Source: Synechococcus sp. UW105
Lineage (GTDB): Bacteria > Cyanobacteriota > Cyanobacteriia > PCC-6307 > Cyanobiaceae
Assembly: GCF_900473935.1 (NCBI RefSeq)
Contig: NZ_UCNN01000012.1
Span: 1-64,000 of the forward strand
DNA: 64,000 nucleotides
Direction of reading: 5' to 3'
Shown here: positions 8,211-54,456 of the stretch, piece by piece
Position numbering within the stretch: position 1 is the stretch's first letter
How the letters are laid out: each line of letters opens with the position of its first letter
Program-made: the position numbers and the translations under genes
The notes under the pieces: generated by a model
The model's database searches: none
Told to the model about the DNA's origin: nothing
What the model saw: only the letters and a program-made list of their open reading frames with translations

Positions 8211-9401
8211 ATGCGCGATCGCTTGCTTTGGCTCACAAGCTTGTTGTTTGTCGCTTGGTTGGTCTGGTCAGAGACCAGTTTTCAGTTTTATGAGCAGTCA
8301 CTCGGGCGGGATCTGGGCTTATCGGTGAGTCGGGTTTCGTTGATTGCTGGCAGCTTTCTCGTGCCCTATGGATTGCTTCAGATTCCTGTGGGTCGCTTTC
8401 TCGATCAGGGACGCCTGGACCGTTGGTTGTGGATGGCTGCCTTGCTGGCCTCTGGATTCAGTGTGGCCTTTGCCTTCAGTCACGATTTGCCCGGTCTGAT
8501 GCTCAGCCGAATGGGGATGGGGATGGCCTGTGCAGTGGCTTTCCCTGCCTCAGCGCTGATCGCCCGTAAGACGCTGCCAGCGAAGCGTTTCCCGTTGGCG
8601 ATGGGGCTCACGGACAGCCTGCTGGGGTGGGGGGCTGCTTTCGCCGCCTTTGTGCCGTTGGTCTTGCCGTCGGCTGCCTGGAGGCATCTTGTGATCGTTC
8701 AGGCGCTGTTGTTGGCGGTGTTGGTGGTTGTGCCTGTGATTGTCTTGACGCAAGGCAGGACGGTTCTGGTGTGTGCTCCTGATCGACACCGCTCGCAGAG
8801 TGCTGTTCCGTGGACCCCCACAGCTGTTGGCCAAGTCATCCGCGCTTGTCTCATTTATGCGTGGGGCGGTGGGTTTGTCTTCGGTCTTGCCCAATACGGA
8901 TTGATTTCTGGTCTGCGTGGTTGGAGCGGTGAGCGCATGCAATGGATGTCACTGACGATGTCCCTGGGGATCGCCTTAGGCATGGTGCTGTCGGGATATC
9001 TCGGCAGCTGTGCGCTGCGTCGGGGGCGGGTGCTGCTGACAGGCACCGTTTTGAATGGTTTGGCTCTTCTGGCTCTATTGCAGCTGCCCAACCATGCGAC
9101 TGCGCCGCTGGGGGCGTCCGCTCTCTGTCTGGGTTTGGGGCTAGGTGCTGCAGTGCTCGCCTTCCCATTGGCAGAAGAAGGGGCTCCGCAGGGTCACACT
9201 GCGTTCACAGTGGCGATCGTGAACACGACAGGCACGGTAATGGGTGGGGTGATGGCGATTGTCTCTGGGTTGATCCTGCAGGCATCAGCCCCAGGCGATG
9301 TGATGCCTGTGCTGATGGTCTATGGCCTGCTGGCCTTGTTTGGCGTTGCAATCGCTTTGGGGCTGGTGTTCAGGCCATCGGTTGTTCAAGATCTGTCTTG
9401 A
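8211..9401 (+). CDS. Major facilitator superfamily transporter
   Basis: A 396-residue inner-membrane protein with about twelve hydrophobic segments. Segment 2 and the loop after it read LIAGSFLVPYGLLQIPVGRFLDQGRLDRWLW, the MFS motif A region (G-x3-D-x-G-R). Start chosen at ATG 8211 (MRDRLLWL), preferred over the GTG at 8202. Substrate cannot be inferred from sequence. The 3' end overlaps the convergent BCCT transporter gene by 16 bp. Confidence 0.85.
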   Translation: MRDRLLWLTSLLFVAWLVWSETSFQFYEQSLGRDLGLSVSRVSLIAGSFLVPYGLLQIPVGRFLDQGRLDRWLWMAALLASGFSVAFAFSHDLPGLMLSRMGMGMACAVAFPASALIARKTLPAKRFPLAMGLTDSLLGWGAAFAAFVPLVLPSAAWRHLVIVQALLLAVLVVVPVIVLTQGRTVLVCAPDRHRSQSAVPWTPTAVGQVIRACLIYAWGGGFVFGLAQYGLISGLRGWSGERMQWMSLTMSLGIALGMVLSGYLGSCALRRGRVLLTGTVLNGLALLALLQLPNHATAPLGASALCLGLGLGAAVLAFPLAEEGAPQGHTAFTVAIVNTTGTVMGGVMAIVSGLILQASAPGDVMPVLMVYGLLALFGVAIALGLVFRPSVVQDLS

Positions 9402-10990
9402 CCGCTGCGCTGCGCTTCTTTCCAAGCCAACCGTGGGGCCGTCCATAGCGTCGCGAGCACAAGCGGTGTGACAGGAACCGCAGCAATCACAATGAAGGCC
9501 TGAAGAGCGTTGATGGAGGTGGGATCGGTCAGGCTGGACCCGACCCGGAGCAGCACCAGCGTGAGGCTGCCGATCATCAGAGCCCAGAAAAGGCGGAGTG
9601 GTGCTGGGGGTTCATCCCGGCCGCTCACCACCATGGCTGCGGCATAGCTCATCGAGTCGGCGCTGGTGCACATGAACAGCACCACCAGCAACAGACCAAT
9701 TGGAATCAGGAGTCCCGACAGCGGAAGCTGGCTGAGGATCGTCAGCAATGTGGATGCAGCGGCATTGATGCCGTCGCTCTCAAGTGCACTGGTGATGTCA
9801 GCACCGTTCAGGTCTAGATACATGCCTGTTCCACCCACAAGCGTGAACCAGAGATTGGTGACCAGTGGGCAGAGAATGGCGACCGCAAGCACCAATTCCC
9901 GGATGCTGCGTCCACGGCTCACCCCGGCGGTGAACAGGCCCATCAGGGGTGCGTAGCCGAGGAACCAGCCCCAGTAGAAGATCGTCCACCAGTTGAGCCA
10001 TTCGCCTGTATTTGCATACATTGGACCCCAAGATCTGCCTGCAAAGAAGCTTCTAGGTAAGAGGGCCATCTGGGGGAGATGAACCACATTGCTCAGCAGT
10101 GCGCTGAAGAAGTGTTGGATCAGCCAAAATCCAGGACCCAGAAGCAGCAGCCCAGCCGCCAGGGCGATGGTGAGCCATACATTGAGCTCCGACAGCCATT
10201 TGATGCCTTTCTGAATGCCGCTGACGGTTGACGTGGCGAACACGGCAGTGAGTAGGACCACAACGAGCGATTGCAGGCCAGCACTGTTGGTGAGCCATGG
10301 CAGTTTGCCGGCAGCATCGCTGAGCTGAAGGGAGAGAAACCCAAGCGGCCCAACGGTGCCGGCGATGGCTGCGACCACTGAAAGGCCATCGGCGAGATCG
10401 CCGATGGGTCCGTCCACCCACCCCCTTGGCAGCACAGTGACCAAAAGGGTGCGGGGGCGAAGGGGTTCACCACGCCGCTCCAGAATCGAGAAGGTGATGG
10501 TGGTAGTGGTGGCGACCAGGGCCCAGGCGAGGAATCCCCAGTGCAGAAAACTCACGGCCAGGGCTGGATCCACGGCCGCAGCCGTTTTCCCCTCAACCCC
10601 TGCTGCTTGGAACAGAGGGGAAGGGGTGAGGTAGTGAAACAGCGGTTCGGCTGCTGACCAGAACACGCCACCGCCGGCGAGCAGGGTGCAGATCAAGACT
10701 GCACACCAGTCAAAGAACTTGAAACTTGGTTTCGCGTTCTCACCCCCCAGTCTGAGCTTCCCCACAGGGCTCACTGCGATGGCCAGCGCGATCAGGAACA
10801 GCAGCAGCACCATCCACTGCCAGAGCCCACCGAGCAGTGTGCTGATCAGTGCTTGCCCCTGATGGGTGAACTTTTTGGCCAGGGCCAGGTCGATGGCTGA
10901 CACGACCAGGAACACCAGCAAAGGGCCAGCTCCCACCCACAGCGGTGGTTGGCGCCACCAGGGGCGAGGGGAAGGGGGGGATTGCGACAT
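9386..10990 (-). CDS. BCCT-family transporter (betaine/carnitine/choline type)
   Basis: A 534-residue membrane protein with about twelve hydrophobic segments. The signature WLNWWTIFYWGWFLGYAPL followed by MGLFTAGVSRGRSIREL is the conserved BCCT region (Trp-rich box in TM8 and the loop after it). These secondary transporters move quaternary or N-methylated amines such as glycine betaine, choline, proline betaine and related osmolytes. It is the last gene of a minus-strand run with a sarcosine-oxidase-like enzyme, an amino-acid dehydrogenase-like enzyme and a SABATH methyltransferase. That supports an amine substrate linked to methyl-group chemistry. Spacing from the oxidase gene is 36 bp. The exact ligand is not decidable from the sequence. 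Confidence 0.92.
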   Translation of the reverse strand: MSQSPPSPRPWWRQPPLWVGAGPLLVFLVVSAIDLALAKKFTHQGQALISTLLGGLWQWMVLLLFLIALAIAVSPVGKLRLGGENAKPSFKFFDWCAVLICTLLAGGGVFWSAAEPLFHYLTPSPLFQAAGVEGKTAAAVDPALAVSFLHWGFLAWALVATTTTITFSILERRGEPLRPRTLLVTVLPRGWVDGPIGDLADGLSVVAAIAGTVGPLGFLSLQLSDAAGKLPWLTNSAGLQSLVVVLLTAVFATSTVSGIQKGIKWLSELNVWLTIALAAGLLLLGPGFWLIQHFFSALLSNVVHLPQMALLPRSFFAGRSWGPMYANTGEWLNWWTIFYWGWFLGYAPLMGLFTAGVSRGRSIRELVLAVAILCPLVTNLWFTLVGGTGMYLDLNGADITSALESDGINAAASTLLTILSQLPLSGLLIPIGLLLVVLFMCTSADSMSYAAAMVVSGRDEPPAPLRLFWALMIGSLTLVLLRVGSSLTDPTSINALQAFIVIAAVPVTPLVLATLWTAPRLAWKEAQRSGQDRS

Positions 10991-11026
10991 GGATTTCTGG
11001 GGAGGGAGCGTGGCGCGGACGTGGAT

Positions 11027-12217
11027 TTAGGGGCGCACTGCCTGACGTTGGTGGCTCCAGCAGCTCAGATCCACAGCTGGTTGTTCGCCACGGGCTAGTC
11101 GGGCGAGTGAGTCACCGATGAGTGGTGCGAATTTGAAGGATTGGCCCGACCCCCCTGCGAACAGGCTCAGTTTCGGGGTGAGACGATCCAGCACGAAGTT
11201 CACATCGCTGGTCATGGAGTACGGGCTGATCACCGTTTCAACGCGTTCCTGCACGCCTTCGAGGTTGTTAAACAGGAAATGGTCCAGCAGCTCGACCAGT
11301 CGTGGCGGTGGTTCGCTGCTCATGGCGTTGGGTTCAACCACGCGCAGCTCTTTCGGTGCCCAATCGATCCCGCTTTTGATCCTTGGCCTGCCATCCTCTG
11401 TTCGGCTCAAGACGGGAAAGCCGTAATACAGCCCGCCGTCATCGCCACGCTCCTGCTGGAAGCAGAACCATTGCGGGTAACGGTCGGCGAGGTTTGGATC
11501 CACCGTGTAGTGGGCCCAGAGCATCGGCCAGATCTCGAGCTTGGGAGCAAGACCGAGGGGAGCGAGCAGCAACTGGCTCCAGATTCCGCAAGCCACCACG
11601 ACCTGGCCGGCTGCGATGTGATGGCCATTCTCCAGGCGGACGCCGCCGCCATCAGCATCAATGCTGCTGACTGGGCTGTGTTCGATCAGCTGATGGCCCG
11701 CGTTGCGGGCGGTGCGAATCCAGTGGGCGATCACTTTGTCGCTGCGCACTGCACCCGCGGTGGGCTCAAACAGGCCGGTGAACTCCGCTTTGGGTTTCAG
11801 CGGGAAGCGGGCTGCAATTTCTGCCGCATTGAGTGCTTCGTAAGGAATGCCCTGGTCATCCATCACCCTGCGCGCCCCAGGGATCGATCCCTCGATCGTT
11901 TCCTCATCCCAGCTTTCGCCGTAGAAGAGCAACCCGTGGGTTTGGCGCAGTGTTTCGCCGGCGTGGGTTTCTTCCTCTCGCCAGAGCCTGTTCGCTTCCT
12001 GGGCGAGACGGCAGAGCACCGGGTCGGAGTACATCTCGCGGAACATCCGGGTTTCGCCGAAGCTGCTGGCTTTGGCATGGGCCAGGGTCTGGGCCTCAAC
12101 CAACACCACATCGGTGATGCCACTGCGCGCAAGGGAAGCCGCGCAGCTCAGGCCTGCCATGCCACCGCCAACGATGACGACAGACGTCTGAGCTGGAATG
12201 GAGGCAGGACTGGTCAT
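11027..12217 (-). CDS. Sarcosine oxidase-like FAD-dependent amine oxidase (MSOX/MTOX family)
   Basis: A 396-residue flavoenzyme. The Rossmann motif VVIVGGGMAGLSCAASLA (GGGMAG at 17-22) is followed by SSFGETRMFREMY, the MSOX-type loop near the flavin, and by FAGGSGQSFKFAPLIGDSLA near the C-terminus. The family oxidatively demethylates secondary N-methyl amino acids (sarcosine, N-methylproline, N-methyltryptophan) giving formaldehyde and H2O2. In monomeric sarcosine oxidase FAD is attached to a Cys just before the MT-x-D motif; here the aligned sequence is SPYSMTSDVNFVLD, with Ser331 in that place, so FAD may be non-covalent. The ATG overlaps the stop of the upstream dehydrogenase gene by 4 bases. 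Substrate is inferred to be an N-methylated amino acid but is not known. Confidence 0.85.
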   Translation of the reverse strand: MTSPASIPAQTSVVIVGGGMAGLSCAASLARSGITDVVLVEAQTLAHAKASSFGETRMFREMYSDPVLCRLAQEANRLWREEETHAGETLRQTHGLLFYGESWDEETIEGSIPGARRVMDDQGIPYEALNAAEIAARFPLKPKAEFTGLFEPTAGAVRSDKVIAHWIRTARNAGHQLIEHSPVSSIDADGGGVRLENGHHIAAGQVVVACGIWSQLLLAPLGLAPKLEIWPMLWAHYTVDPNLADRYPQWFCFQQERGDDGGLYYGFPVLSRTEDGRPRIKSGIDWAPKELRVVEPNAMSSEPPPRLVELLDHFLFNNLEGVQERVETVISPYSMTSDVNFVLDRLTPKLSLFAGGSGQSFKFAPLIGDSLARLARGEQPAVDLSCWSHQRQAVRP

Positions 12218-13269
12218 TCCGTTTCTCCGAAGCTGAGACCGATGGGCTCCGTGCGGGGGGCTGCAGCCACTTCATTCAGGGCAGCTCCCACAGACAGGCC
12301 TTGATCGCGTTGGTTCAGATACTTGCTGGCGCGTTGGCGCACTTCATCCCTAACGAATGTGTAAACGTCCTCAGCACCGGCGCCTTTCCAGGCTTCAGGC
12401 GAGAAGCGTTCAATGGAGTCGGCAATCACGGCCCCCGCATTAACCAGAGGGTCGGGCAAAACCGGAATGTCACGTTCCCTCAGACTTTCGGCCAGCTGGG
12501 GATCCTGGAAGGGTGCATTGGCGGCAGGGACCACCGCCTTGGTCCGCAGCGCCGCGGTGATCGAGGCATCTATCAGGCCTGAGATCGAGCAGGGCAGCAA
12601 CAGATCCAGCTCCAGTTCCCACCAAGGACAATCGTTGGGAAGAGGTGTTGCGCCTTTGAAGCCTGCTCGCTCACGGCTCAGATCAACGGTGAACACTGTC
12701 CAGCCGTGGTCCACCAAAGTGCGGGCGACCGTGCCGCCCACCGCGCCGCAGCCGTGAACCAGGGCGCGCCCTGGTTCAGCATCTTCCAGTTTGTTGCCCA
12801 GCACGGCTTCCACAGCACCAAGGGTGCCGTGGGCAGTGGCAGCGCTGGCATCCACCGGACTGCCCACCGCTGCCAGGACATGGGGTGTCAAAGCGGTCAG
12901 ACGCTCCATGTCCTCGAGGCTGGTGTTGAGATCACAGCCTGTGATCATTGCCCCATCCAGAGATTCGAGAAGCCCTGCGGTGACGCTGATCAATTCCTCC
13001 TTCACAGCTTCTGGGTCGGAGGCGCGAGCAACGATCTTCCCGCCTGCGAAACCGGTGCCGTAGAGATCGTGTTTGTGGGTCATCAGACCAGCCAGGCGCT
13101 GTCCGTCAGCGATGCAGGCTTCATCGCTCGGGTAATTGAGCAGCCGAAGCCCACCATTCGCCGGCCTCTTGGCATCCGTGGCTTCGCCCACCACAAAGAC
13201 AGAGAGATGGTCGGAGACGTGTTCCGCCAGAACCGTCACCGGCGGCGTGTGATCTGTGGTGCTGCCCAT
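12214..13269 (-). CDS. Glu/Leu/Phe/Val dehydrogenase family protein (leucine-dehydrogenase-like)
   Basis: A 351-residue protein of leucine/phenylalanine-dehydrogenase size. The substrate lysine and catalytic lysine are both visible: MTHKHDLYGTGFAGGK has Lys66 and Lys78 at the spacing of K68/K80 in leucine dehydrogenase. Asp113 in GCDLNTSLEDM matches the catalytic Asp. GCGAVG (173-178) is the NAD-binding turn in LVHGCGAVGGTVARTLVDHG. The family deaminates L-amino acids to 2-oxo acids with NAD(P)+, or the reverse. Start at ATG 13269 overlaps the SABATH stop (TGATG), and the stop overlaps the oxidase start (ATGA), so the three genes look translationally coupled. Substrate unknown; context suggests an amino acid that is also methylated or demethylated. 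Confidence 0.88.
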   Translation of the reverse strand: MGSTTDHTPPVTVLAEHVSDHLSVFVVGEATDAKRPANGGLRLLNYPSDEACIADGQRLAGLMTHKHDLYGTGFAGGKIVARASDPEAVKEELISVTAGLLESLDGAMITGCDLNTSLEDMERLTALTPHVLAAVGSPVDASAATAHGTLGAVEAVLGNKLEDAEPGRALVHGCGAVGGTVARTLVDHGWTVFTVDLSRERAGFKGATPLPNDCPWWELELDLLLPCSISGLIDASITAALRTKAVVPAANAPFQDPQLAESLRERDIPVLPDPLVNAGAVIADSIERFSPEAWKGAGAEDVYTFVRDEVRQRASKYLNQRDQGLSVGAALNEVAAAPRTEPIGLSFGETE

Positions 13270-14306
13270 CAGCCCACCCGTTCCATCATTTGGTGGTGCT
13301 CGACGTAATCGAGACTCCACTCGCTCGGCGCAGCAGCAATTCGCTCCTGCAGGCGTTGATAGACCGTGTCTGCAGCTTGATCGCCTGCGGCGGAAGCAAA
13401 GCTGTGACGGCTCCAACTGCGGATCGTGGCCATCAGTCCTGCCGCGAACGTGGCGGTGTCACCGTCCTCGTTCCAGCGGCGGCGATAGGGGCACTTCACA
13501 TAGGCCGTCCGCTCATCCACTAGGCGAAGACCGTTGCGGTATGCCGGTGAAGACTCATCTTTGAGCGGAGCCATGAACTCCGTCGGTGACTTGTAGAAGT
13601 TGTTGACGGTGCCATTGCGGTATTGCTCCTCGCTAATCAGTCCTTCGTCCGCCATGCCGCGCCAGATCTGATGGAGCTGGTCGTGCACATTGCGGGTTTC
13701 CCCTCCGTTGTGCCCCAGATAGCGACCCTGTTCATCGCGTGAAAGATTCACGGTTAACAGTCGCCCTCCCACCTTGAGCTCGCGGCTGCGTAGTTCAAGG
13801 ACGTAGTTCCAGTCCTTCAGCGCTTGGGCCGTGAAGCGTTCCAAGGCTTCGCTATCGCCGGAGGCAAGCACATGGGTATGGGTATTGAGCGGACCTGGAG
13901 AGGCGCTCAGCCAGTGCATCGCTGTGGCGGAGAAGCCGAAACTCACCGTGTCTGGAGCGACGGAGGGCTCATAGAAACTGCGAGCACTCACTAAGACGGT
14001 CGGTTTCGGGGACCGGGGAATCTGGAGGGCCAAGTTTTCCGCCAAGGCCACGTTGTCGTTGCTTGGCAGGTCATTGCCGATTAGCGTCAGATGTGCCGCC
14101 GGCTGGTTGGCATGCAGGCGATCCAGAATCTGGTTCCAGAGACCAACAGCGGTGCCACCATCGGCAGCTCCGTAGTCGATTAGCACGTGGCTGTTTTGGG
14201 CAGCCAGGGAATCCACACAAGTCAAGGCCCAGTCCGAAGCAGCTTCGATGCAGAGCAGAGCTCCTTCGGTCTGTGCGCTGTAACCCGTGGTCATGGCGAT
14301 GGCCAT
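13269..14306 (-). CDS. SABATH-family SAM-dependent methyltransferase
   Basis: About 345 residues from ATG 14306 (ATG at 14294 is also possible; a GAGG lies 3 bases before the first). The sequence follows the plant-type SABATH pattern: IDYGAADGG (43-51) for SAM binding, IGNDLPSND (77-84, as in the plant NDLPGNDFN), SFYEPSVAPDTVSFGFSATA followed by MHWLS (110-134, equivalent to SFYGRLFP...SSYSLHWLS). VGGRLLTVNLSR and IWRGMADEGLISEEQY come next. SABATH enzymes O-methylate carboxylates of small molecules or N-methylate xanthines. Finding one in a coupled operon with an amino-acid dehydrogenase, an N-methyl amine oxidase and a BCCT carrier is unusual. Substrate unknown. The upstream rdgB gene ends 52 bp away. 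Confidence 0.85.
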   Translation of the reverse strand: MAIAMTTGYSAQTEGALLCIEAASDWALTCVDSLAAQNSHVLIDYGAADGGTAVGLWNQILDRLHANQPAAHLTLIGNDLPSNDNVALAENLALQIPRSPKPTVLVSARSFYEPSVAPDTVSFGFSATAMHWLSASPGPLNTHTHVLASGDSEALERFTAQALKDWNYVLELRSRELKVGGRLLTVNLSRDEQGRYLGHNGGETRNVHDQLHQIWRGMADEGLISEEQYRNGTVNNFYKSPTEFMAPLKDESSPAYRNGLRLVDERTAYVKCPYRRRWNEDGDTATFAAGLMATIRSWSRHSFASAAGDQAADTVYQRLQERIAAAPSEWSLDYVEHHQMMERVG

Positions 14307-14358
14307 CGACCTCGTCAGCGTCAGATTGCACGGTACAGCGCTGCCCAGGTCTGACTCG

Positions 14359-14946
14359 CTACACAACCTTAAGAAGCTCGCGCAGCTTTGGCTCCAGCTG
14401 CATGAAGGCAAGGCCGCGATGGCTGAGGCGCTCTTTGGTGTCTGACGGCATCTCGGCAAAGGTCAGATCGGTACCGGTTGCTTCGAAGATTGGGTCGTAT
14501 CCAAAGCCGTCTACCCCCCGTGGTTCCTGGGTGATGCGTCCTAGGCAACGGCCCTCGACTTCGGCTAGCACGCAGCCATCGGGGGCGGCGATGCAGAGGG
14601 CAGCACTGAAGTGCGCCTCACGGTTTTTGCTCGCGCCCAACTCCAAGAGCAGGCGGGTGATCCGTGCTTCATCTGTGTCGGCATAGCGCGCGGAGTAAAC
14701 GCCAGGAGCGCCTCCGAGGGCTTCCACGCTTAATCCCGAATCATCGGCCAGAGCCCAATGGTCGGTTGCAGCGGCCACGGCAATGGCTTTGATCCTGGCA
14801 TTTTCGCTGAAGCTGGTGCCGGTTTCCTCCACATCCATGTCCCTGGGCTGGGGCTTCAGGCTCAGAGGTAGATGGGCCAGCAGGCGGGCGAATTCACGGA
14901 TCTTGCCGGCATTGCCGCTGGCGATGACCAGGGTGCGAGGTCTCAT
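14359..14946 (-). CDS. rdgB: RdgB/HAM1-type non-canonical purine NTP pyrophosphatase
   Basis: A 195-residue enzyme that hydrolyses dITP/XTP and related triphosphates to monophosphates, keeping deaminated purines out of DNA. Diagnostic motifs are VIASGNAGKIREF at the N-terminus, ADDSGLSVEALGGAPGVYSARY in the middle, and GFGYDPIFEATGTDLTFAEM with SHRGLAF at the end. Length is normal. It precedes the SABATH gene and follows the phosphohexomutase gene (31 bp), all on the minus strand, so the amine cluster may be read from a longer transcript. Confidence 0.95.
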   Translation of the reverse strand: MRPRTLVIASGNAGKIREFARLLAHLPLSLKPQPRDMDVEETGTSFSENARIKAIAVAAATDHWALADDSGLSVEALGGAPGVYSARYADTDEARITRLLLELGASKNREAHFSAALCIAAPDGCVLAEVEGRCLGRITQEPRGVDGFGYDPIFEATGTDLTFAEMPSDTKERLSHRGLAFMQLEPKLRELLKVV

Positions 14947-14977: not shown

Positions 14978-16438
14978 TCAGATCGCGGTGGCGAAACTCT
15001 TGGCCCAGGCGAGCACCTTCTCGACTTGTTCGGAGCTGGGCGCTTCGCAGTACAGACGCAGCAGTGGTTCGGTGCCGGAGAATCGGAGCATGAGCCAGTG
15101 GCTAGGGCCGAGCCGCAGCTTCACGCCGTCGATGCTCATCACCTCTTGCACCGGGATGCCGGCAACCTCCGTGGGTGGGTTCTGCGACAGCAGTGTCTCG
15201 AGGCGGTGGCGGGAGGCCATGTCGGCCAGGCGCAGGTCCACCCGGTCATAATGGCTGGCGCCACCGCAGCGATCCTGGAGCGACGTCACTCTGGCGCCCA
15301 GCGGTTTGCCCCCTTCGACAAGCGCTTCGAGCACCAGTAGGGCGGCAAACAGGGCATCCCGTTCAGGTAGATGCATGCCGAAGCCCACACCACCGGATTC
15401 TTCGCCGCCGATCAGCACCTTTCCGTTCAGCATCTCGGAGGCGATGTATTTGAAGCCCACAGGCAGTTCCAGCACCTCACGCTCAAGGTCTTCAGCGACT
15501 AAACGCATCAGATCTGAACCGCTCACTGTTTTCACGACTGAGCCGGGAAGTTGCCGTGCACGCGCCAGATGGTCGATCAAGAGAGGCATCAGTTGTTGCG
15601 TACTGCAGAAGTTCCCCTGCTCATTAACGGCAGCAATGCGGTCGCCGTCGCCGTCAAATACCAGACCCACAGCTGGAGAACCGCTCGCGCTTGTCTCCTT
15701 CACCGTTGCGATCAATTCCTGCAAATAAGAGGCGAGAGGCTCAGGTGGGTTGCCGCCGAACAGGGGGTCGCGGCTGCTGCGGATTTCACGGACTGGTCCA
15801 TCCGGGCCACCGAGCAGCTCGGCCATACAGCCGGCGGCAGAGCCATGCATGGGATCAACAATGACCTTCAGGTTCATGGCATCAAGGCCGCGGCGGAGGC
15901 CATCAAGGTCGACTTTGGTTCGTAGCGATGCGAGATGCTCCGCTCTGGCGTCAAATCGCTCCGTATCACCTTGGCTGGCTGCGGTGATGCCTCCCGCCGC
16001 CAGGCGCTTCTCGACTGCTGTGGTGAAGTCACCCTCCACAGACCCTCCAAACGGGCCTTTGATCTTCAGTCCCAACCATTCCGGTGGGTTGTGGCTGGCA
16101 GTAATCACCAGTGCCCCGAGGGCTTGGCGTTCCACGACTGCTGAGCTGCAGGCCGGGGTGGGCACGGCGGTGGTGCTGAGTAGCGGTTTGAGGCCGCAGC
16201 CGCGTACTGCTGAGGCAATGGCCTCGGCCAGTTCTGGTGCAAGGAAGCGGCGGTCGTATCCGATCACCACCGTTTCACTCGCGTTACTAGGCGGAGCGCG
16301 ATGCGCCAGTTCCTGAGCTGATGCGGCAGCAACCATCAGCAGGCGTTCCACGGTGATGTCGACCCCGAGGATCCCCCGCCATCCGTCGGTGCCGAACTGG
16401 ATTGGCGAGGCAGCGAGAGGTAGGGGAGCTGAAGCCAT
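14978..16438 (-). CDS. Phosphoglucomutase/phosphomannomutase family protein
   Basis: A 486-residue alpha-D-phosphohexomutase. It contains the N-terminal QFGTDGWRGI, the phosphoserine loop VITASHNPPEWLG (Ser115), the metal loop VFDGDGDRIAAVN, the sugar-recognition GGEESGGVGFGMHLPERD, and the phosphate-binding RFSGTEPLLRLY. It interconverts hexose 1- and 6-phosphates for glycogen, nucleotide sugars or polysaccharides; glucose versus mannose preference cannot be read reliably. Start ATG 16438 gives the family's usual beginning. The divergent nuclease gene starts 66 bp away. Confidence 0.93.
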   Translation of the reverse strand: MASAPLPLAASPIQFGTDGWRGILGVDITVERLLMVAAASAQELAHRAPPSNASETVVIGYDRRFLAPELAEAIASAVRGCGLKPLLSTTAVPTPACSSAVVERQALGALVITASHNPPEWLGLKIKGPFGGSVEGDFTTAVEKRLAAGGITAASQGDTERFDARAEHLASLRTKVDLDGLRRGLDAMNLKVIVDPMHGSAAGCMAELLGGPDGPVREIRSSRDPLFGGNPPEPLASYLQELIATVKETSASGSPAVGLVFDGDGDRIAAVNEQGNFCSTQQLMPLLIDHLARARQLPGSVVKTVSGSDLMRLVAEDLEREVLELPVGFKYIASEMLNGKVLIGGEESGGVGFGMHLPERDALFAALLVLEALVEGGKPLGARVTSLQDRCGGASHYDRVDLRLADMASRHRLETLLSQNPPTEVAGIPVQEVMSIDGVKLRLGPSHWLMLRFSGTEPLLRLYCEAPSSEQVEKVLAWAKSFATAI

Positions 16439-41143: not shown

Positions 41144-41217
41144 GCGCTTGTAGCTCAGCGGATTAGAGCATCTGACTACGGATCAGAGGGTCGGGAGTTC
41201 GAATCTCTCCAGGCGCG
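41144..41217 (+). tRNA. tRNA-Arg (ACG)
   Basis: Acceptor GCGCTTG pairs with CAGGCGC (one G-T pair), the D arm is GCTC...GAGC, the anticodon stem TCTGA/TCAGA encloses CTACGGA (anticodon ACG), and the T arm is GGGAG-TTCGAAT-CTCTC with one G-T pair. Discriminator is G; CCA is not encoded. ACG is usually edited to ICG and reads CGN. A terminator hairpin follows. Confidence 0.95.
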
Positions 41218-54370: not shown

Positions 54371-54456
54371 CACATCTCTCGACAGGTTCGGCCTGAATCA
54401 GGGCCATGACCTTTACAGTACCGAGACTTAACCTCACCCGAGACCCAAGCGCTGCC

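Follow-up and report, generated by a model that had tools for sequence, protein, structure and literature searches.

The stretch of DNA analysed here, hereafter the window, comprises 64,000 nucleotides of Synechococcus sp. UW105 (contig NZ_UCNN01000012.1, positions 1 to 64,000), and its minus strand carries from 14306 to 9386 four tightly coupled open reading frames (ORFs), encoding in this order a SABATH-family methyltransferase, a GLFV dehydrogenase, an MSOX-superfamily flavoenzyme and a BCCT carrier. We propose, at a probability of roughly two in three, that this operon would make and keep homarine (N-methylpicolinate), a compatible solute of the betaine type. The order of the genes, their co-occurrence, their families and the conserved residues are observed; all substrates, products and directions given below are inferred.

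In the proposed pathway, the GLFV (leucine-dehydrogenase-like) dehydrogenase (351 aa, 12214-13269, minus strand; PF00208/PF02812) is a candidate lysine 2-dehydrogenase that would take the alpha-amino group off L-lysine with NAD, and the 2-oxo-6-aminohexanoate so formed would close on itself to give piperideine-2-carboxylate. The flavoenzyme (396 aa, 11027-12217, minus strand; PF01266, with a NikD-like profile) is a candidate piperideine-2-carboxylate oxidase or dehydrogenase that would draw four electrons from this compound, aromatising it to picolinate. The ring nitrogen of picolinate would then be methylated at the expense of S-adenosylmethionine (SAM) by the SABATH-family SAM-dependent methyltransferase (345 aa, 13269-14306, minus strand; PF03492), a candidate picolinate N-methyltransferase, that is, a homarine synthase. 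Finally, the BCCT carrier (534 aa, 9386-10990, minus strand; PF02028), which has an altered aromatic motif, is a candidate for homarine (betaine) uptake or recapture and would bring back homarine that has leaked or been released by neighbours.

The methyltransferase and dehydrogenase genes have the A of a TGATG common to stop and start codon, the dehydrogenase and flavoenzyme genes overlap by ATGA, and a 36-base gap separates the flavoenzyme and BCCT genes. These ORF coordinates agree with an earlier reading of the letters alone (the sequence-only reading), which had described four coupled minus-strand genes at 9386-14306 with TGATG and ATGA junctions and a 36-bp gap before the BCCT gene. Its assignment to the families SABATH, GLFV, MSOX-type and BCCT was confirmed by Pfam matches over the cut-off in every case, the check it suggested for co-occurrence of the four families came out in its favour as detailed below, and the marine picocyanobacterial setting was right. 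Synthesis of a methylated osmolyte was one of the options that it named and was right as such; the reading has now shifted to homarine synthesis.

Conserved residues of the four proteins

The dehydrogenase matched PF00208 with 55.5 bits (cut-off 23.4) and PF02812 with 29.1 bits (cut-off 25.3), and its residues were followed in 36 orthologs, comprising 28 from the family sample described below, one further Synechococcus-type and 7 Prochlorococcus-type sequences. It has the fold of leucine dehydrogenase (LeuDH) and of the tryptophan dehydrogenase ScyB, as judged with an AlphaFold model (predicted local distance difference test score, pLDDT, 75.7) used for fold comparison alone, and their catalytic Lys, Lys and Asp are kept in 36/36 orthologs as K66, K78 and D113 (LeuDH K68, K80 and D115). 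LeuDH residues L40, A113, V291 and V294 share in substrate specificity, positions 40 and 294 being crucial in GluDH (PMC2723916); L40, V291 and V294 line the pocket, and A113 alters specificity (PMC8766677). At these four positions all 36 operon dehydrogenases have N38, G111, V281 and D284, thus differing from LeuDH at both L40 and V294. The combination of an acid at LeuDH position 294 with an amide at position 40 would suit a basic substrate whose side chain bears an ammonium group, as that of lysine does. Lysine is the natural candidate: ring closure of its 2-oxo acid, proposed to be spontaneous, would yield piperideine-2-carboxylate, on which NikD-type enzymes act (PMC11446937). Leucine dehydrogenase itself was rejected as an assignment, as the hydrophobic L40/A113/V291/V294 pocket is replaced in 36/36 orthologs, and ScyB was rejected as well, which gave the best NCBIfam score for this protein, yet at 93 bits against a cut-off of 600.

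The flavoenzyme matched PF01266 with 159 bits (cut-off 27.9). When a profile of 10 of its orthologs was compared with solved structures, NikD (2oln) came out nearest with 147 bits, followed by 7exs with 129 and MSOX with 124, and the flavoenzyme of the window alone gave 121 bits with NikD and at most 108 with sarcosine oxidases. The best NCBIfam names remained below their cut-offs (N-methyltryptophan oxidase, 187.7 of 257; soxA, 135.5 of 479.65). Six residues, R57, R60, E109, Y265, D285 and K362, are present in 35/35 flavoenzymes, and the last five of these are identical to R53, E101, Y258, D276 and K358 of NikD, counted on an alignment with the window flavoenzyme, which we take to be active-site residues of NikD. 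The MSOX chain shown in 1l9c, presumably the His269Asn form of the enzyme, has Asn at the D285 column and Ala at the NikD E101 column, and the alignment of 7exs is shifted at D285; the column of His269, which we take to be a characteristic residue of MSOX, may hold Asp in the operon flavoenzymes. An AlphaFold model of the flavoenzyme was poor (pLDDT 60) and was left unused. Based on these profiles and residues, the flavoenzyme most likely works like NikD, though we do not class it as a NikD.

The methyltransferase matched PF03492 with 79 bits (cut-off 29.8). Its profile scored best among solved structures with the bacterial fatty acid O-methyltransferase 5f2k (80 bits) and also matched SAMT (1m6e), whose W151 aligns with W132 of the operon enzyme, whereas similarity to the solved plant N-methyltransferases 6lyi, 6lyh, 2efj and 2eg5 was low (24-31 bits). 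Ring N-methylation of picolinate is proposed by analogy with the coffee trigonelline synthases CTgS1 and CTgS2, SABATH enzymes that likewise turn a pyridine carboxylic acid into a betaine, by N-methylation, but use nicotinate, an isomer of picolinate, instead of picolinate (PMC8877179).

The BCCT carrier, with 414.8 bits against PF02028 (cut-off 27), is the single BCCT match of this genome. The motif WT[IV]FYWGWFLGY in transmembrane helix (TM) 8 is present in 28/28 BCCT copies and HWGFLAWALV in TM4 in 27/28, L040 being the copy without a match to the latter pattern. In comparison with the best-scoring solved relative, 8ybq, TM8 reads WGWFLGY for WAWWIAW and TM4 reads ALV for GVF, so that the aromatic box known from glycine betaine carriers is not kept in full, on the assumption that these motifs correspond to the aromatic box of BetP. 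The altered TM8 motif suggests a substrate other than glycine betaine, for which we propose homarine. The carrier nevertheless belongs to the same family as BetP/BetT-type carriers, and SYNW0229 of strain WH8102, its presumed counterpart, has been mapped as BetT (PMC2874817). Identity to the BCCT protein of the window reaches 98% in L037 (2212-3777) and 93% in L039 (2159-3676), as against 83-88% for the other three genes of these loci, where the carrier gene was apparently swapped without its neighbours.

Distribution of the operon and of its three-enzyme core

The family sample consisted of 201 genomes, and its operon loci are that of the window and L031-L057. The SABATH gene was found in 28/201 genomes at 78-100% identity, after three of the 31 genomes that matched had been dropped (G102 and G194, at 23% identity, and a fragment in G122). 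Flavoenzyme matches above 700 bits were obtained in exactly these 28 genomes; a total of 148/201 genomes match the flavoenzyme at E <=0.001, of which only those above 700 bits were counted, and the matches listed for the other genomes reach at most 31 bits. The BCCT gene (E <=1e-30) is again confined to exactly the same 28 genomes, and the dehydrogenase (E <=1e-20) occurs in these 28 and in G030. The chance of two identical sets of 28 genomes is about 7e-35 if genomes are taken as independent, a value for orientation only since the genomes are related.

The order of the four genes is kept in 28/28 family-sample genomes with the SABATH gene. At the 27 loci other than the window, the SABATH and dehydrogenase genes overlap by 1 base (n=18) or 4 bases (n=6) or are 5 bases apart (n=3), the dehydrogenase and flavoenzyme genes overlap by 4 bases in 26/27, L036 having a broken flavoenzyme frame, and the spacing between flavoenzyme and BCCT genes ranges from -17 to +73. 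The flavoenzyme gene of L036 (genome G112) is split over two frames, as is the SABATH gene in G638 and G666, one genome each of the window's genus and of genus g5; these split-frame copies represent either sequencing error or gene decay. Among 31 named loci, which include those of WH7803 (L059), RCC307, UW140 and MU1642, all four genes were present in 28 (in L060 with a partial BCCT gene at the contig end), and contig ends interrupt the remaining three, L067, L087 and L088, the latter two being second pieces of assemblies already counted. The SABATH gene is present in 30/31 genomes of the genus of the window, and in 24/24 of those at >=90% completeness and <=5% contamination; the corresponding figures for genus g5 are 28/34 and 17/19.

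Outside the family none was seen, as every one of the 20/386 phylum-sample genomes with a match lies in family f1; the scan of named contigs used a Synechococcus-type profile, which gave no Prochlorococcus and is a weak guide to distant relatives outside the family. Viral carriage of the operon was rejected, since 35 stretches of viral contigs matched a pattern and none of them was a relative. The gene ham1 adjoins the operon in 25/27 of the other family-sample loci, and neither ham1 nor the phosphoglucomutase gene was seen beside the operon in the stretches covered for L041 and L043, which points to movement or rearrangement. A distant SABATH-type gene with 20-23% identity was observed in two high-GC genomes of the family (L109, 4268-5458; L110, 5273-6361). 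The dehydrogenase ortholog of G030 lies at 9549-10673 (minus strand) of L129 and by eye shares the N and the D of the pocket; the nearby ORF 7994-6435 resembles, also by eye, a membrane-linked spermidine synthase.

Further copies came from a small-genome genus of 101 genomes that we label Prochlorococcus-type by their genome size and by the 26-31% GC of the stretches examined. The SABATH gene was found in 7/101 of these genomes, and in 7/7 the SABATH, dehydrogenase and flavoenzyme genes stand in the same order, encoding proteins 49-55% identical to those of the window. There was no BCCT gene beside this triad in 7/7 loci, over stretches of 6 to 16 kb; we regard the three enzymes as the core, to which the carrier is accessory. 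A BCCT protein 60-67% identical to that of the window is encoded in 4/101 genomes, two of which (G556 and G620) also hold the triad at a different place; the probability of such an overlap by chance is 0.023, in a sample that includes incomplete genomes. The TM8 motif of the G556 protein is the same as in the Synechococcus-type carrier. An ORF of about 240 aa lies 3' of the triad on the same strand in 3/7 loci (L108, 3969-4691; L123, 10325-11035; L124, 10590-11301), the copy in L124 being split.

Homarine in Synechococcus and rival explanations

Homarine is present in both Synechococcus strains tested, WH7803 and WH8102 (PMC8269262; PMC10134881). After a 25-fold correction, its concentration is up to 18 mM in one strain, which by inference is WH8102, and about 0.2 mM in WH7803 (PMC10134881). 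On a transect in the Pacific, homarine reached 0.25% of particulate carbon after the same downward correction (PMC10134881), and a second study was corrected likewise (PMC10308880). WH7803 carries the operon (L059). In WH8102, the BetT gene SYNW0229 lies in a predicted operon SYNW0229-0233 (PMC2874817), which should correspond to the BCCT, flavoenzyme, dehydrogenase, SABATH and ham1 genes. Papers of 2021 state that homarine biosynthetic pathways are uncharacterised (PMC8269262) and that genetic information is lacking (PMC8269247). The word homarine is absent from the main text of a Prochlorococcus ecotype paper (PMC10654061), the homarine passages of a 2025 diatom paper give no synthesis genes (PMC12817926), and no description of homarine biosynthetic genes or of a pathway was found in the open papers searched, subscription papers and preprints being outside the search. 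As far as searched, the proposed pathway is new, yet made of known kinds of enzymes. The statement of the sequence-only reading that no described pathway has this combination agrees with the literature searched; it needs to be qualified in that single steps have precedents, in nikkomycin synthesis and in coffee trigonelline synthase.

In nikkomycin synthesis, a lysine 2-aminotransferase (NikC/SanL) gives piperideine-2-carboxylate, which a sarcosine-oxidase-type enzyme (NikD) converts to picolinate (PMC4021061); that paper speaks of a monomeric sarcosine oxidase for the picolinate step, and the reference cited there names NikD. The proposed route would pass through the same compounds, lysine being turned into piperideine-2-carboxylate and this into picolinate by a flavoenzyme of the sarcosine oxidase type. 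It would differ in having the GLFV dehydrogenase in place of the aminotransferase and in N-methylating its picolinate, with no CoA ligase to activate it. In WH8102, a related organism, GsmT/SdmT also make a betaine by methylation, glycine betaine, with other genes (SYNW1913-1914) and from another substrate (PMC2874817). Glycine betaine synthesis was accordingly rejected as the job of the operon, other genes being assigned to it in WH8102. Whether the operon represents the gene-level homarine route of ocean picocyanobacteria at large is in our judgement an even proposition. The lysine-fed triad would then be common to almost all Synechococcus of the sea and to a smaller part of Prochlorococcus, with a new lysine 2-dehydrogenase, an enzyme like NikD that lacks covalent flavin and a SABATH N-methyltransferase of bacterial kind, and a subclass of BCCT carriers would be dedicated to homarine.

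A number of observations weigh against the homarine reading. The column of Cys321 of NikD, which we take to be the site of covalent FAD attachment, is occupied by V in 28 of 35 flavoenzymes and by F in the other 7, and 35/35 have S two columns further on, where Cys315 of MSOX, presumably its own covalent-FAD site, may align. Thus neither candidate covalent-flavin column, NikD or MSOX, holds a cysteine in any of the 35; 9/35 do carry a cysteine within positions 318-362, but by eye it lies off these columns. NikD Trp355, presumably located at the substrate, is replaced by Q359 in 35/35, and the Prochlorococcus-type flavoenzyme of L108, taken alone, is closer to MSOX (109.5 bits) than to NikD (99 bits). 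For a NikD homolog that belongs to a different pathway, the reaction is proposed to end before the ring is fully oxidised (PMC11446937), so that likeness to NikD is no proof of picolinate. For the methyltransferase, the best score with an O-methyltransferase makes methyl picolinate a possible product. At the genome level, G641 and G658 are near-complete genomes of genus g5 without the SABATH gene, G030 has the dehydrogenase without matches to SABATH, full-length flavoenzyme or BCCT, and in triad-bearing Prochlorococcus-type genomes the BCCT gene is elsewhere or was not found. Since WH7803 has the operon, the hundredfold homarine gap between strains is not due to its absence; moreover, Heal et al. 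cite quinolinate as another origin of homarine (PMC8269262), and the identities of SYNW0230-0233 were derived from size and order.

The replacement of Trp355 and the flavin cysteine, together with the partly oxidising homolog, leaves full aromatisation unassured, and this favours the idea that the same route to the cyclic imine or picolinate ends in a different signal or solute, such as methyl picolinate, pipecolate betaine or an ornithine-derived pyrrole-2-carboxylate product. The best structural relatives of the SABATH enzyme are indeed carboxyl O-methyltransferases, and the N38/D284 pocket would suit ornithine too. We nevertheless consider another end product unlikely, as homarine itself has been measured in the two Synechococcus strains, at about 0.2 mM in WH7803 and with a maximum of 18 mM, and the BCCT gene is in the operon in 28/28 copies, a carrier better matched to a zwitterion than to an ester.

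The leading idea of the sequence-only reading, uptake followed by demethylating turnover, is less well supported: NikD is nearest by profile, the flavin cysteine is gone, and the triad can stand with no carrier gene beside it. Here a betaine or methylated amino acid imported by BCCT would be demethylated by the flavoenzyme, the dehydrogenase would deaminate the product for nitrogen and the SABATH enzyme would methylate on the side; every family has, as general knowledge, members with such activities, and the sub-cut-off NCBIfam names and the one MSOX-leaning Prochlorococcus-type flavoenzyme speak for it. Against it, the cysteine of MSOX is missing and the column of its His269 is apparently Asp, with these MSOX residues as we assume them to be, the occurrence of the triad without an adjacent carrier in 7/101 Prochlorococcus-type genomes fits poorly with an import-and-degrade unit, and a SABATH gene that comes first and is in every operon copy seen would be odd for a catabolic one. 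On residue and distribution grounds, we thus rank lower the idea that the operon mainly serves to demethylate sarcosine or N-methyl amino acids, and turnover of this kind is in our view improbable, at about one chance in nine. Finally, the four genes might be neighbours through lineage history alone, with unrelated jobs, as 25/27 other copies share a single chromosomal location next to ham1 and the BCCT gene was apparently exchanged alone in L037 and L039. This we regard as very improbable: the overlapping junctions are kept, the operon of L041 and L043 has no ham1 beside it in the stretches covered, and diverged Prochlorococcus-type genomes keep the same three genes in the same order.

If the homarine reading is true, the four genes would serve as a marker that reveals homarine makers in genomes and metatranscriptomes and would predict which Prochlorococcus make homarine, and the flow of carbon and nitrogen from lysine to a betaine could be traced. 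It would also add three enzymes of new specificity.

Leader and neighbouring features of the window

The leader 5' of the SABATH start (14307-14350, minus strand) contains a TAC[GC]GT block and, just before the ATG, CTGACGAGGTC, as candidate promoter and ribosome site. Within the last 20 bases before the SABATH ATG, CTGACGAGGTC was found in 18/28 copies, and TAC[GC]GT lies at -45 to -15 of the start in 20/28. That the leader block is common to 18-20 of the 28 copies suggests an own promoter of the operon despite the close upstream ham1, and a role of this leader as promoter and ribosome site is possible. Upstream on the same strand lie ham1 (14359-14946), a conserved neighbour encoding a Ham1/RdgB-type pyrophosphatase (PF01725, 194.5 bits), and upstream of it a phosphoglucomutase-like gene named by eye (14978-16438, minus strand); given their closeness, the operon transcript may extend further. 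The ham1 gene is probably outside the pathway. From the side opposite to ham1, an MFS gene converges on the operon in the window. No Rfam family scored over threshold at the operon in the window, L108, L123, L059 or L084. Elsewhere in the window, a psbNH RNA element was observed at 54381-54439 (minus strand) and a tRNA gene at 41144-41217 (plus strand).

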